Source: Sphingosinicella flava (GTDB lineage Bacteria > Pseudomonadota > Alphaproteobacteria > Sphingomonadales > Sphingomonadaceae). Taken from it: 64,000 nt of DNA. This document shows positions 12,119 through 40,593 of the stretch, one piece after another (the first letter of the stretch is position 1; each line of letters starts with the position of its first letter). The notes under the pieces are model-generated. The model saw only the letters and a list, made by a program, of their open reading frames with translations. It made no database searches and had not been told where the DNA came from. Made by a program: the position numbers and the translations under genes. Location: the NCBI RefSeq assembly GCF_016025255.1, contig NZ_CP065592.1, positions 911,122-975,121 on the forward strand, in the 5' to 3' direction.

Positions 12119-14605
12119 TCAGCCTTCTATTTTGGAGAAGTCCGCGACCCTGTGCACCGCGTCGCGCATCCGGGCGAGGAGGTTCAGCCTCGCCTCGCGT
12201 TTCGCGGGGTCGGGATCGTTGACCGTGACCTTGTCAAAGAACATGTCGACCGGCGCGCGGAGGCTGGCGAGGGCCGCCATCGCGCCTTCGAAATCCTCCG
12301 CCTCGATCGCTGCCGCGGCCTTGGGCTCGGCGGCGTCGAGTGCGGCGATCAGATCAGCCTCTTCCTTTTCGGGCGTGTAGGAAAGTGGCTTTTTCGGATG
12401 ATGATGCGCCATTTCGGCGATGGCGTCCGCGACGCCCGGTTCCTCGACCAGCACGAGCGGGTCTTCCTCGCCCGTTTGCGGGATGCCCTGGCTGCCGGTG
12501 GAGGTCAGCGCCTCGGCGCCGGTCCAGCCTTCCTTCTTCAGGATATTGGCCGCGCGCTTGTAGCCGGCGAGAAGGTCCGTCCCCTCGCCCGTCTCGACGA
12601 AAGATTGCAGCGCCTTCACCCGCGCGAGCAGGCGGACGAGATCGTCCTCACCGCCAAGGGCGAAGACCGCGTCGATCAGGTCGTGGCGAACGCCTGCTTC
12701 GCGCTGCTGGACTTTGAGGCGGTCGGCCAAAAAATCTGCCGTGAAGTAGATTGTCCCCAAAATCTTGTCCGCGAACCAAGTGTCGCGGTCCGCGAGAGCG
12801 GCGTCCCGCTTTGTTGCCAATATCGATGCATAAAGGTCCAAGAGTTTCTGACGATCAGCATACTCAGATGCGATCTCGTACATGGCATCGGCGGCACTAT
12901 GTGTCTCGCTTGTATAAATTTTAACAGCTCGGTGTACCAGCGGCTCAAACAGAGCAGCACGGAGCGGCAGCCGGATTTCGTTGGAGATCAATAGGCTCAG
13001 GACACCCAACGCAGCTCTCCGCAGGGCGAAGGGGTCTCGCGATCCAGTAGGGACTTCATTCACGATGAAGAACTGCGACAAGCTATCCAGCTTGTCCGCC
13101 AAGCTCACCGCCACCGTGACCGGGGCGGTGGGGACTTCGTCGCCTTGGCCGACCGGCTTGTAATGGTCGCGGATGGCGTCGGCGACGGCGTCCGGATGGC
13201 CCTGGGCGCGGGCGAGGTAGCCGCCGATGAGGCCCTGCAATTCGGGGAATTCGCCGACCATGCCGGTGACGAGATCGGCCTTGCAGAGGCGGGCGGCGTC
13301 GTAGGCTAGTTGGGCCAAAAGCTCTCTCTCCCCTTCAGGGGAGAGAGTTGGAGAGAGGGGGCGGTCTGCAGGTGCGCTGGATGAGAGAGGAGAGGTCTCG
13401 GACTCCCCCTCTCCCAACCCTCTCCCCTGAAGGGGAGAGGGCTTAATGATCCCCTCTTCCACCAGCCAGCGGGCGAGTTTGGCGACGCGGTCGACCTTGT
13501 CGGCGACCGTGCCGAGCTTTTCGTGGAACACGATCTGGTTGAGCTTCTCCGCCTGATTTTCCAGCGGAATTTTGAGATCCTGTTCCCAGAAGAATTTCGC
13601 GTCGGAGAGACGCGCGGCGAGGACTTTTTCGTTGCCCGCGACGATCGAGGCGCCGCCGTCGGCCGCGTCGATGTTCGCGGTGCAGATGAAGTTTGGAGCC
13701 AACGTGCCAGCCCCTCCACCAGCCTTCGGCTGGTCCCCCTCCCCGTCCCGGGGAGGAATTTGAGCGGCGAAATATTTCTGGTTGGTCCGCATGGTGAGCT
13801 GGATCACTTCGCGCGGGACGTCGAGGAAGGTCGGGTCGAACGAGCCCAGCAAAGGCACCGGCCATTCGGTGAGGCCGGCATTTTCGGCGACGAGGCCTTC
13901 GTCTTCGACGAGGATCAGGCCCGCATCCCTAGCGGCCTTCGCGGCGCCGTCGCGGATGATTTGCTGGCGTTCCCTGGGATCGACGATGACGTGGCAGGCG
14001 CGGAGCTTTTCGGCATAATCGTTCGCGCTACCGATGGTGATCTGGCCCGGATGGTGAAAGCGGTGGCCGACCGTCGCGGCGCCGGAGCTTATCCCTGCGA
14101 CTTCGAAGTCGACGATTTCCTCGCCGAGCAGGGCGACGATGCCTTGCAGCGGGCGGACCCAGCGCGGGCTTTCGGTCGAAAGCGAGGCGGCGCCCCAGCG
14201 CATGGATTTGGGCCAGGGGAAGGCGCGGACGATGGCAGGGATGGCTTCGGCCAGCACGTCTTTCGTGGCCTGGCCGGGCTTGTCGATGACGGCGAAATAC
14301 GTGCCGTCGCGGTCGACGAGCTGGTCTTGGCGGAGGCCAGTCTTGCGCAAGAAACCTTCGAGCGCCTGCGGCGGGGCGCTGGTGCGGGGGCCCTTCAGCT
14401 CCTCGCTGACGGCGACGGTTTCCGTGGGGAGACCCCGCGCGATCAGGGTCAGGCGGCGGGGCGTGGAGAAGGTTTCGATGCCTTCCGCCTTCAGGCCCGA
14501 TTTGATGAGTTCGGCGTCGAAGAGGGATGCTAGATCCTTCTCCGCCTTCGCTTGCATGCGGGCGGGGATTTCTTCGGACAGGAGTTCGAGGAGGAAATCA
14601 GGCAT
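12119..14605 (-). CDS. glyS: Glycine--tRNA ligase beta subunit with in-frame insertions
   Basis: 828 residues, longer than the roughly 690-750 usual for GlyS. It begins MPDFLLELLSEEIPARM and has the family landmarks GFLRKTG, VDFEV, RTNQKYFA, KADLVTGMVGEFPELQG, DFLADRLK-like and VTVNDPDPAKR. With the alpha subunit it charges tRNA-Gly. The extra length comes partly from two palindromic elements read in frame (13322-13441 and about 13702-13762) and a lower-GC segment at about 12740-12960. The start is set at MPDF, 9 bases after GGGA; an upstream in-frame ATG is crowded against that site. Confidence 0.95.
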   Translation of the reverse strand: MPDFLLELLSEEIPARMQAKAEKDLASLFDAELIKSGLKAEGIETFSTPRRLTLIARGLPTETVAVSEELKGPRTSAPPQALEGFLRKTGLRQDQLVDRDGTYFAVIDKPGQATKDVLAEAIPAIVRAFPWPKSMRWGAASLSTESPRWVRPLQGIVALLGEEIVDFEVAGISSGAATVGHRFHHPGQITIGSANDYAEKLRACHVIVDPRERQQIIRDGAAKAARDAGLILVEDEGLVAENAGLTEWPVPLLGSFDPTFLDVPREVIQLTMRTNQKYFAAQIPPRDGEGDQPKAGGGAGTLAPNFICTANIDAADGGASIVAGNEKVLAARLSDAKFFWEQDLKIPLENQAEKLNQIVFHEKLGTVADKVDRVAKLARWLVEEGIIKPSPLQGRGLGEGESETSPLSSSAPADRPLSPTLSPEGERELLAQLAYDAARLCKADLVTGMVGEFPELQGLIGGYLARAQGHPDAVADAIRDHYKPVGQGDEVPTAPVTVAVSLADKLDSLSQFFIVNEVPTGSRDPFALRRAALGVLSLLISNEIRLPLRAALFEPLVHRAVKIYTSETHSAADAMYEIASEYADRQKLLDLYASILATKRDAALADRDTWFADKILGTIYFTADFLADRLKVQQREAGVRHDLIDAVFALGGEDDLVRLLARVKALQSFVETGEGTDLLAGYKRAANILKKEGWTGAEALTSTGSQGIPQTGEEDPLVLVEEPGVADAIAEMAHHHPKKPLSYTPEKEEADLIAALDAAEPKAAAAIEAEDFEGAMAALASLRAPVDMFFDKVTVNDPDPAKREARLNLLARMRDAVHRVADFSKIEG
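13322..13441. repeat. Intragenic palindromic element in glyS (about 120 bp)
   Basis: The ends are inverted copies of about 38 bases, each holding the hairpin CTCTCCCC-TTCA-GGGGAGAG. The right copy is near-identical in reverse complement to the left. It is 120 bases, 40 codons, so glyS stays in frame and gains a Pro/Ser/Gly-rich stretch (PLQGRGLGEG and PLSPTLSPEGERE). The flanking protein resumes normal GlyS sequence at YDAARLCKADL. It looks like a miniature inverted-repeat element that uses coding sequence. Confidence 0.85.
13702..13762. repeat. Second intragenic palindromic element in glyS (about 60 bp)
   Basis: Two hairpins sit side by side: ACCAGCC-TTC-GGCTGGT (13718-13734) and CCTCCCC-GTCC-GGGGAGG (about 13739-13756). 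Read on the glyS strand they encode PPRDGEGDQPKAGGG, where ordinary GlyS has only a short turn between QKYFA and LAPNF. Boundaries are estimated from the protein break. Confidence 0.7.
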
Positions 14606-14663
14606 TCGTTGCATTCCCACTCGTCATTCCAAGGTGCTTAAACGTCATTCCAGCGAGCCCTTC

Positions 14664-14750
14664 CGTCATTCCAGCGAAAGCTGGAATCTCACTGTCTTTA
14701 GATCGGTCGGTCCAAGGAGAAGGGAGATTCCAGCTTTCGCTGGAATGACG
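14664..14750. repeat. Inverted pair of 26-bp hairpin repeats
   Basis: The left copy (14664-14689) and right copy (14725-14750) are exact reverse complements of 26 bases. Each contains the inner hairpin ATTCCAGC-GAAA-GCTGGAAT, whose GAAA is a GNRA-type tetraloop when transcribed from one strand. Partial copies start at about 14632 and 14643. It fills the glyQ-glyS spacer, so it is transcribed between two essential genes. Confidence 0.9.
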
Positions 14751-14764
14751 GAGGGGCGGGGCTA

Positions 14765-37830: not shown

Positions 37831-39359
37831 CCGCCCCCGTCACCCATATCTGGCGGCTCCTGAAATGGGGCCGGGTGCTGGCGCGGCACGGCGCCTTGCG
37901 CGGTATAGAGCGCGATCCCAACACGCCCGCGCCGGTGCGCCGTCTCGCCCGCCTGGCGCGGTTTGGCGCGCAGGTGCCCAAGGTGCCGGAATATGCCGTC
38001 GCCTTCCAAAATATCGGTCCGGCCGCGATCAAGCTGGGTCAAGCTCTCGCGACGCGGCCGGATCTCGTCGGCGAGGCGGCTGCCCGCGACCTGCTGCGCT
38101 TGCAGGACGCCCTGCCCCCTGCCCCCTTCACGCAGATCAAGGCGGCGATCGAGCAAGCGCTGGAGCGGCCGCTCGAGGAGATTTACGCGCAATTCGATCC
38201 CGAACCGGTCGGCGCCGCCTCCATCGCGCAGGTCCATCGCGCGGTGACGATGGAGGGCCGGGAAGTGGCGGTAAAGGTGCTGCGCCCCGGCATCGAGGAG
38301 GAATTCGCCAAGGCGCTCGACACCTATGAATGGGCGGCAGCGCAGGTCGAGGCGATGGGCGGGGAAGCCGCGCGGCTCCGTCCCCGTCTCGTCATCGCCC
38401 ATTTCCGGCAGTGGACGGCGCGCGAACTCGACTTGCGGCGCGAGGCGGCATCGGCATCCGAACTGGCCGAGGGGATGGCGGCGGAGCCCGGCTTCGACGT
38501 GCCCGCCATCGATTGGACCCGCACCGCGCGGCGGGTGATGACGATGGACTGGATCGACGGCATCAAGCTGTCGGACCGCGAGGCGCTGATCGCGGCGGGC
38601 CTCGACACGCGGGCGCTGTCGCAGCGCCTGGTCCGCGCCTTCCTGCGCCAGGCGATCGCTGAAGGGTTCTTCCACGCCGATCTCCATCAGGGCAATCTCT
38701 TCGCCAAGCCGAACGGCCATATCGGCGCGATCGATTTCGGAATCATGGGCCGCGTCGACCGGCAGGCGCGGCTGTGGCTCGCCGAAATCCTCTATGGCCT
38801 CATCACCGGCAATTATGCCCGTGTCGCGGAAATCCATTTCGAGGCGGGCTATGTTCCCGCCCATCACAATATGGCCGAATTCACGACGGCGCTCCGCGCG
38901 GTCGGCGAGCCGATCCGCGGCCTGCCGGTCAAGGACATTTCCGTCGGCCAGATGCTGGACGGCCTGTTCGCAATCACCCGCGATTTCGACATGCCGACCC
39001 AGCCCCACCTCCTGCTCCTCCAGAAGACGATGGTCATGGTGGAGGGCGTGGCGACGGCGCTCGATCCCGACATCAATATGTGGGAAACCGCCGAGCCGTT
39101 CGTGCGGGAATGGCTGCGCAGCGAGCTGGGGCCGGAAGCGAAGATCGCCGACGAGCTGGTGCGCAACGTCCGCACGCTCCGCAGACTGCCGGAGCTTATC
39201 CGCCGGATCGATTATTACTACCCGGCGCCAGGCGCGGCGCCGCCCCCGCCGCCCTTGCGCGAGATCGCCGTGGTGCAACCACCGCGGTTCGGAGGCTATT
39301 TGCTGACGGCGATCGTTTCGGCGGCGGCTGGCGCGGCGGCGATGTTCCTCCTAAATTGA
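37827..39359 (+). CDS. ubiB: Ubiquinone biosynthesis protein UbiB
   Basis: 510 residues from TTG 37827, which overlaps the ubiE stop (TTGA); no ATG fits better. The ABC1/ADCK kinase-like core has the KxGQ motif (IKLGQALATRPDL), VAVKVLRPGI and AIDFGIMGRV-type Asp. A C-terminal membrane segment follows a proline-rich stretch. It supports ubiquinone synthesis at the membrane. ubiE-ubiB-coaBC-dut is a conserved alphaproteobacterial unit. Confidence 0.94.
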   Translation: MTAPVTHIWRLLKWGRVLARHGALRGIERDPNTPAPVRRLARLARFGAQVPKVPEYAVAFQNIGPAAIKLGQALATRPDLVGEAAARDLLRLQDALPPAPFTQIKAAIEQALERPLEEIYAQFDPEPVGAASIAQVHRAVTMEGREVAVKVLRPGIEEEFAKALDTYEWAAAQVEAMGGEAARLRPRLVIAHFRQWTARELDLRREAASASELAEGMAAEPGFDVPAIDWTRTARRVMTMDWIDGIKLSDREALIAAGLDTRALSQRLVRAFLRQAIAEGFFHADLHQGNLFAKPNGHIGAIDFGIMGRVDRQARLWLAEILYGLITGNYARVAEIHFEAGYVPAHHNMAEFTTALRAVGEPIRGLPVKDISVGQMLDGLFAITRDFDMPTQPHLLLLQKTMVMVEGVATALDPDINMWETAEPFVREWLRSELGPEAKIADELVRNVRTLRRLPELIRRIDYYYPAPGAAPPPPPLREIAVVQPPRFGGYLLTAIVSAAAGAAAMFLLN

Positions 39360-39363
39360 AGCC

Positions 39364-40593
39364 ATGCAGGGCAAGCGCATCCTCCTGATCGTCGGCGGCG
39401 GGATCGCGGCCTATAAAGCATGCGAGCTCATCCGGTTGATCCGTAAGGAAGGTGGCAGCGTGCGGTGCGTGCTGACCAAAGCGGGCGAGCAATTCGTGAC
39501 GCCGATGACATTGGCGGCGTTGTCCGAGCAGGAGGTTCACACCTCGCTCTGGAGCCTCAAGGACGAGGTCGAAATGGGGCATATCCAGCTGTCGCGGCAG
39601 GCGGACCTTGTCGTCGTCTGCCCCGCGACTGCCGATCTCATGGCCAAGATGGCGGCGGGGATCGCGGACGATCTCGCCACGACGCTCCTCCTCGCCACCG
39701 ACAAACCGGTGCTGGCCGCGCCCGCGATGAACGTGCGCATGTGGCTGCATCCCGCCACCCAACGCAACGTGGCGCGGCTCCGGGCGGACGGAGTGACGGT
39801 GCTGGAACCCGATGAAGGCGAAATGGCCTGCGGGGAATATGGGCGGGGACGGCTGCCTGAGCCTGCAGCCATTCTTGAAGCGATCCAATCCGCGCTCGCC
39901 CCGAGTGAAGGTGAGGGGCGCAGGCGCGAATGGCCCTCGCCTTCGCTCGGGACGAACGCCAGGCTGACCGGAAAGCACATCATCGTCACCGCAGGCCCAA
40001 CCCACGAAGCGATCGATCCCGTCCGGGTGATCGCCAATCGGTCCTCGGGCAAACAAGGATATGCGATTGCCGAGGCGCTGACCGCGCTGGGCGCCCGCGT
40101 GACGCTCATCTCTGGACCGACCAGCCTTGCAACGCCCTCAGGCGCGCAGCGGATCGATGTTCAGACCGCGGCGCAGATGGAACACGCTGTCGACCAAGCC
40201 CTTCCCGCCGATGCAGCGATCCTGGTGGCGGCGGTGGCCGACTGGCGAGTCGAAACGGCGCCGTCCAAGCTCAAAAAATCCGCGGGACCGCCGGACCTCA
40301 ACTGGATGCCGAATCCGGACATCCTCGCCCTTCTCGGAGCGCGGGCGGACCGCCCCCGCCTCCTGGTCGGCTTCGCGGCCGAGACCGACAATGTCGTCGC
40401 CGAAGCCCAGGCCAAGCGCGTCCGCAAGGGCTGCGACTGGATCGTCGCCAACGATGTGTCGGGCGACGTGATGGGCGGGGACACCAACGAAATTCACCTC
40501 GTCACCCAGGACGGCGTCGAACATTGGGACGCGGCGTCCAAGGCGGACGTCGCCCGCCGTCTCGCTGGAAGGATCGCCGATGCCCTCGCCTGA
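39364..40593 (+). CDS. coaBC: Phosphopantothenoylcysteine synthetase/decarboxylase CoaBC
   Basis: 409 residues. The CoaC flavin domain starts [20 protein letters not shown] and has the PAMNVRMW motif with the conserved Asn. The CoaB domain begins [18 protein letters not shown] with the K-x-D-type later motifs. It performs two steps of CoA synthesis. The linker between the halves carries a palindromic element (about 39902-39954) read in frame. Overlaps dut by 14 bases. Confidence 0.95.
39902..39954. repeat. Palindromic element inside the coaBC linker
   Basis: CGAGTGAAGGTGAGGG and CCCTCGCCTTCGCTCG are inverted relatives (two mismatches), of the same family as the arms at 36974-37050. It encodes [19 protein letters not shown], a low-complexity stretch in the linker between the CoaC and CoaB domains. 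Confidence 0.8.

Follow-up and report, generated by a model that had tools for sequence, protein, structure and literature searches.

The window analysed here is a 64,000-nucleotide stretch of the Sphingosinicella flava genome (contig NZ_CP065592.1, positions 911,122 to 975,121), in which the gene glyS occupies positions 12119-14620 of the minus strand and encodes 833 amino acids from the listed GTG. Its product matches PF02092 in one stretch over residues 10-654 (E=1.4e-173), and the codon numbers used below refer to the 828-aa form of the protein, which starts at 14605. The features discussed are the following, the differences being counted against the relative Allosphingosinicella vermicomposti:

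12119..14620, minus strand: glyS, glycine--tRNA ligase beta subunit, the host gene (833-aa ORF and PF02092)
13322..13441, minus strand: family A palindromic dimer, 120 bp, in frame, codons 389-428 of the 828-aa form (inverted repeat and fold)
13405..13441, minus strand: 5' arm of the dimer in the sense of the gene, 37 nt, hairpin CCCTCTCCCCTTCAGGGGAGAGGG (0/37 differences)
13360..13404, minus strand: spacer between the arms, 45 nt (13/45 differences)
13322..13359, minus strand: 3' arm, 38 nt, with hairpin (0/38 differences)
13710..13757, minus strand: palindromic repeat of family B, the other in-frame insertion of glyS (sequence reading)
39934..39953, minus strand: family C repeat unit, in frame in coaBC (ORF 39355-40590, plus strand; pattern search and frame reading)

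The original prediction had placed an in-frame element, with terminal inverted repeats of about 38 bases that each hold an 8-base-stem hairpin, at 13322-13441 inside this tRNA-synthetase gene, and this description is confirmed. Namely, the coordinates are correct, the arms measure 37 and 38 nt and carry 8-bp stems, and the element adds 40 codons to glyS with no stop codon among them. The ungapped inverted repeat, as computed, joins 13326-13351 to 13414-13439 (26 nt, 96% complementary), and the somewhat wider arm limits given above were set by reading, with a small gap allowed. Each arm contains the 20-nt near-palindrome CTCTCCCCTTCAGGGGAGAG (8-bp stem, 4-nt loop), which at up to three mismatches has four strand-wise matches in the window, all of them at the two glyS arms, and none in 100 dinucleotide shuffles. 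The strand of the element is predicted to fold at -82.9 kcal/mol, with a z of -6.4. The second in-frame repeat of the gene, that of family B, was absent from the prediction. An Rfam scan of the window returned one tRNA and nothing else. In addition, the intergenic region between glyS and glyQ holds, at 14657-14757, an inverted dimer of family D, which is of the CGTC type.

As the prediction supposed, the repeat is dispersed through the genome, a single contig of 2,421,597 bases. BLAST of the glyS element against it gave 38 matches at E<=10, a figure that includes both strands of single places and whose weakest members are possibly due to chance, and the hairpin pattern CCTCYCCC-N-GGGRGAGG gave 80 forward matches against one for the reversed control. 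The patterns of the other families gave 12 hits for family B, 24 strand-wise hits for family C and 117 strand-wise hits for family D, with zero control hits in each case. The family labels are our own and were assigned by motif and reading; families A and B, which have a CTCCCC/GGGGAG core in common, may be distant kin. Merging the hits of families A, B and C (family D lies outside this set) gives 95 places, 13 of which are in frame within 12 genes: 11 were called in frame and open by a codon-usage test on both flanks, and two, mutL and murD, were missed by this automatic rule and added by reading. In particular, family A is in frame in glyS, rarA, uvrA, truB, mutL and murD (6/71 places, one mixed A/C place counted), family B in glyS, ligD and a pyruvate-dehydrogenase-E1-like gene (3/10), and family C in mtaB, coaBC, a dihydrolipoamide acyltransferase gene and putA (4/14). 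Family models above the curated cut-off back the names of glyS, mtaB, coaBC, ligD, uvrA, truB, mutL and putA, and Pfam MgsA_C, also above its curated cut-off, that of rarA; murD is named by reading, together with matches to the middle and C-terminal domains of Mur ligases, and the model matches of the E1-like and acyltransferase genes lie below the cut-offs. The commonest subtype, A', has the sequence CCTCCCCCTTGATGGGGGAGG and often forms dimers of about 103 bp (for example at genome places L205, L237 and L240).

Is the insertion perhaps the same in GlyS throughout the order? An alignment of 99 distinct proteins from 110 GlyS loci indicates that it is not, since the elements differ between relatives, and GlyS proteins that lack the element, which the prediction had proposed to look for, are in the majority. 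Namely, at core position 377, which is the site of the 120-bp element in S. flava, at least 10 extra residues are present in 40/99 proteins; a palindromic repeat is recognisable in 38/99 and none in 61/99, the latter including loci L038 and L117, whose insertions have no clear repeat. By label, these repeats belong to family A in 15 proteins (L045 and L070 being A-like), B in 10, D in 9 (L076 being D-like) and C in 4. In one of the 38 carriers, L047, the repeat lies at a contig end, which leaves 37 intact carriers. This contig stops beside the glyS repeat and cuts the ORF, and palindromic repeats may break assemblies there. On a GlyS tree, the states at this loop require at least 27 changes (14 in presence and 16 in family among carriers), or at least 26 without L047 (14 in presence and 15 in family, for the 37 intact carriers); these counts are approximate, the tree being a "quick" one that uses alignment columns with 85% of the rows occupied and contains 30 open forks, and its starred branches alone require at least 8 presence changes. 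Shuffled state labels cost a mean of 36.0 changes, which is above the observed number, so that kin rows tend toward a common state. What is more, the loops at core 285 and core 592 also hold repeats, in at least 8 and at least 15 rows by reading; sites other than 377 were judged from the DNA, since the motif scan was a loose one, with 68 hits for its reversed control. Around core 510, many relatives (L031 among others) have a variable region, whose sequences are mutually unalignable. L126, a Xanthobacteraceae record from outside the order, likewise has 37 inserted residues at core 285, with an inverted repeat of 9 bp.

A similar picture emerges from truB, for which 24 of the 30 fetched loci were read at the DNA level. 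All of its repeats sit at one loop, which holds family A in S. flava, a different inverted repeat in A. vermicomposti, repeats of the B type at 10 loci and of the CGTC type at 3 (two dimers and one single). Among 30 rarA loci, only that of S. flava is filled; the site is empty in 27 of the 29 others, a short remnant of a repeat is left in L278, and L295 is truncated. Comparing the filled rarA site with the empty ones gives a net gain of 30 codons, or 90 bp, which is less than the element's length of about 102 bp; no clear duplication is seen, and a clean target duplication, sought in both rarA and truB, was found in neither.

In an AlphaFold model of GlyS built with 46 sequences (mean pLDDT of 85.7), residues 391-420 of the insert have pLDDT values of 42-57 and are flanked by confident helices at 367-383 and 423-440. 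The model fold matches solved GlyRS beta chains, and E. coli GlyS has 9 residues aligned opposite 51 in this GlyS. The loop belongs to what we take to be an HD-type domain. Low values are also found for the block of the second repeat (residues 291-300, pLDDT of 54) and for a stretch in the third loop (residues 701-720, 41-43). The insert is thus modelled with low confidence, as one would expect if the loop is disordered.

We consider it likely that these repeats are selfish elements, similar to dimers of REPs, which survive only where a loop is permissive. In particular, the 120-bp repeat would have entered glyS before the split of S. flava from A. vermicomposti, and it would persist there because the GlyS loop tolerates it, the frame is kept and no stop is introduced; copies that broke needed genes would have been lost. 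The stretch would then be translated as a linker of Pro, Ser, Gly and Glu that is probably disordered. In other sphingomonads, palindromic repeats of four families by our labels occupy this GlyS loop, two further GlyS loops and one TruB loop. The sequence, the frame, the recurrence and the low model confidence of the insert are observed, and we infer that the element is mobile, translated and neutral and that the enzyme continues to function. This tolerated-passenger view is supported by the 13 in-frame places among 95, the recurrent filling of GlyS and truB, the low pLDDT of the insert, and the statistics on length and frame given below. Recurrent capture was also checked against the case of a single element at a single codon across the order, and this is not what the relatives have. 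Against the tolerated-passenger view stand the facts that no mover was found, that no target duplication was demonstrated, and that the gain in rarA is smaller than the element. If it is correct, the inserts document the places at which two universal enzymes naturally accept some 20-70 additional residues, and the series of filled and empty sites provides material for studying how untagged and CGTC-type REPs move.

Two observations suggest that the simplest form of this explanation is incomplete. Namely, a neutral passenger would have no need to preserve its arms, and A. vermicomposti, the nearest relative found (GlyS 83-84%), differs from this genome at 0/75 arm positions as against 13/45 in the spacer (L032/L061; Fisher p=8e-7), which does not fit a plain passenger, though the control on 38-base stretches given below tempers the contrast. 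Furthermore, an LAxxAE-like stretch, a pattern chosen after viewing the rows, follows the insert in 37/37 intact carriers and is present in 8/48 empty rows of the Sphingomonadales part of the tree, which makes insertion into arbitrary loops too simple an account. The longer loop with this stretch is either a permissive state or else a leftover of filled loops, and in the latter case there would be fewer separate insertions. One can entertain, as a tentative possibility, that the GlyS and TruB loops are common docking sites, at which families succeed one another in place and the arms of the resident are maintained at the DNA level; in other words, such a loop would be a niche for repeats and its occupant something other than a random survivor.

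It is also conceivable, though in our opinion unlikely, that the palindrome has a function of its own at the DNA or RNA level within glyS and that its arms are under selection. Besides the contrast between arms and spacer, this idea draws on third codon positions, of which 0/25 differ in the arms vs 90/368 upstream (p=0.002), and on the comparison of relatives: of eight pairs compared, five were taken as separate, and in these five, which we picked ourselves, positions paired in the predicted fold (a class that includes part of the spacer) differ at 39/462 and unpaired ones at 45/165. Identical differences between the two arms are present in both species, which speaks against one arm having served as the template for repairing the other. 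Still, the 61/99 GlyS proteins free of the element weigh against such a function, and so does the control that 281/2324 of the 38-base stretches of glyS also show at most one difference; moreover, the likeness of arms in some pairs may stem from separate insertion or conversion, as the spacers there are unalignable (L039/L042). For the gene outside the element, the differences from A. vermicomposti number 124/1104 before it and 257/1140 after it (381/2244 in total). The spacer thus outpaces the gene in divergence while the arms stay constant.

Could the placement be due to mechanism and not to survival, the loops being preferred DNA targets of the mobilising enzyme? The filling of an identical codon region in 38/99 GlyS proteins, the different repeats that sister species have at one truB site and the flank common to all 37 intact carriers would all fit, but several families would then require one common target, and three GlyS loops are in use. 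What is more, no Y1 transposase was found here: PF01797 (Y1_Tnp) has no match at E<=1 in this genome, where 10 of 14 controls matched, 6 of them above the cut-off, and at E<=0.001 it has none in this genome (G000) or in that of A. vermicomposti (G019), 16 of 41 genomes being positive. The idea that the genome itself encodes a Y1 transposase as the mover was consequently rejected. Among same-genus genomes with a GlyS hit, the site is filled in 4/10 with a Y1 match and in 9/14 without one, a tally by which filled glyS sites do not track this transposase. No transposase was recognised by eye among the ORFs of 13 intervals between neighbouring repeats (up to two ORFs each, first 90 residues). Taken together, we regard placement by target preference as rather improbable.

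The original prediction went further and suggested that translatability is itself under selection in the repeat, a reading by which its length and frames would be tuned for harmless entry into genes. The data do not support this part, and we now think it very improbable. In particular, the lengths of the 29 dimers not called intragenic leave a remainder of 0, 1 or 2 on division by three in 11, 12 and 6 cases, respectively; as length depends on where the edges are placed, and in 5 of the 29 these are BLAST-based or mixed, we recounted the dimers with both edges set by pattern and found 8/24 to be multiples of three, so that neither count contains an excess in this small set. Likewise, these 29 dimers have on average 3.31 open frames of six, close to the 2.96 of shuffles that preserve letter composition only and not neighbours. 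Families are also read in different frames. Namely, family B encodes PPRDGEGD in glyS (site 285), ligD and the PDH-E1-like gene, SSPERGGGPA at GlyS 377 and ILPGTGRG in truB of relatives, which makes three frames when genes and species are pooled. For family A, the arms likewise occur in three phases, as PSPLQGRG (glyS 5' arm), LSPSGER/LSPEGER (rarA, glyS 3' arm) and PLPFRGG (truB second arm). What can be said in favour of tuning is that 13/95 places are in frame, that the intragenic dimers have a higher mean of 4.4 open frames (n=5), with up to 5 or 6 in B and C dimers, that within this genome 3/3 intragenic B copies and 3/4 C copies have a common frame, and that the A' subtype is seldom intragenic (1/45 vs 12/50 for the rest, Fisher p=0.002, a contrast picked post hoc). 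A survival filter, however, predicts the same intragenic excess and the same rarity of A' in genes, and in our reading the frame is retained because selection on the host gene demands it. Finally, a conserved GlyS insertion that is repetitive in looks only was rejected and has practically no chance of being correct: although A. vermicomposti has the insert at the identical codon, other relatives hold different sequences at core 377, and the glyS repeat recurs in other genes and in intergenic DNA.

How does the element, read as a tolerated selfish repeat, compare with known systems? REPINs and BIMEs are inverted pairs of REPs that a RAYT mobilises, and the glyS element resembles them in its two inverted REP-like hairpins and spacer; it differs in that this genome and that of A. 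vermicomposti gave no match to the RAYT domain (Y1_Tnp, PF01797) at the thresholds above. A second comparison is with the REPs tagged with GTAG or CGTC, some of which come from E. litoralis and S. alaskensis, both of them sphingomonads. Such REPs and their dimers, according to the available part of the paper describing them, are mostly intergenic and in some cases lie within ORFs, namely in tRNA synthetases and truB of these two species, in uvrA of two other species and in a DNA ligase, and the CGTC type is without a dedicated transposase (Di Nocera et al. 2013, PMC3733652). Like the glyS element, they are small inverted pairs of hairpins, some of them in known genes, as far as that part of the paper goes, and a many-copy palindromic unit with inverted dimers is present here as well (80 matches vs 1 in the control). 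The arms of the glyS element, on the other hand, have neither tag and start with CTCTCTC and CCCTC, whereas family D starts with CGTC. Furthermore, the portion of that paper accessible to us reports approximately the same site only for recB of two Xanthomonas, other genes of one functional category differing in site, whereas in the present data a single GlyS loop is occupied, across many species, by repeats that fall under four labels. In this sense, the kind of insertion is already known, as in-frame intragenic REPs; a literature search that included few subscription papers and no supplements gave no description of several families filling one loop, or of glyS or truB loops being filled repeatedly. 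MITEs, too, may be fused in frame, among them ERIC/RU-1 and the 107-bp form of Correia, in the part of PMC2229807 available to us; they share with the glyS element the character of small inverted repeats in frame within genes, and differ in that neither a target duplication nor a parent insertion sequence was demonstrated here. The likeness to the palindromic elements of Rickettsia, which the original prediction had drawn, stands: those, which are the earlier precedent (Ogata et al. 2000, 2002), are palindromic, about 105-150 bp long and in frame in unrelated conserved genes, judging from the accessible parts of PMC2229807 and PMC10969869, and here, likewise, a dispersed repeat lies in frame in a conserved gene and in others unrelated to it (13 copies in 12 genes). 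The host belongs to another bacterial order, and the likeness concerns length, palindromic form and in-frame placement. If our reading is correct, the conversion of selfish DNA into protein sequence extends beyond the case of Rickettsia to free-living bacteria.
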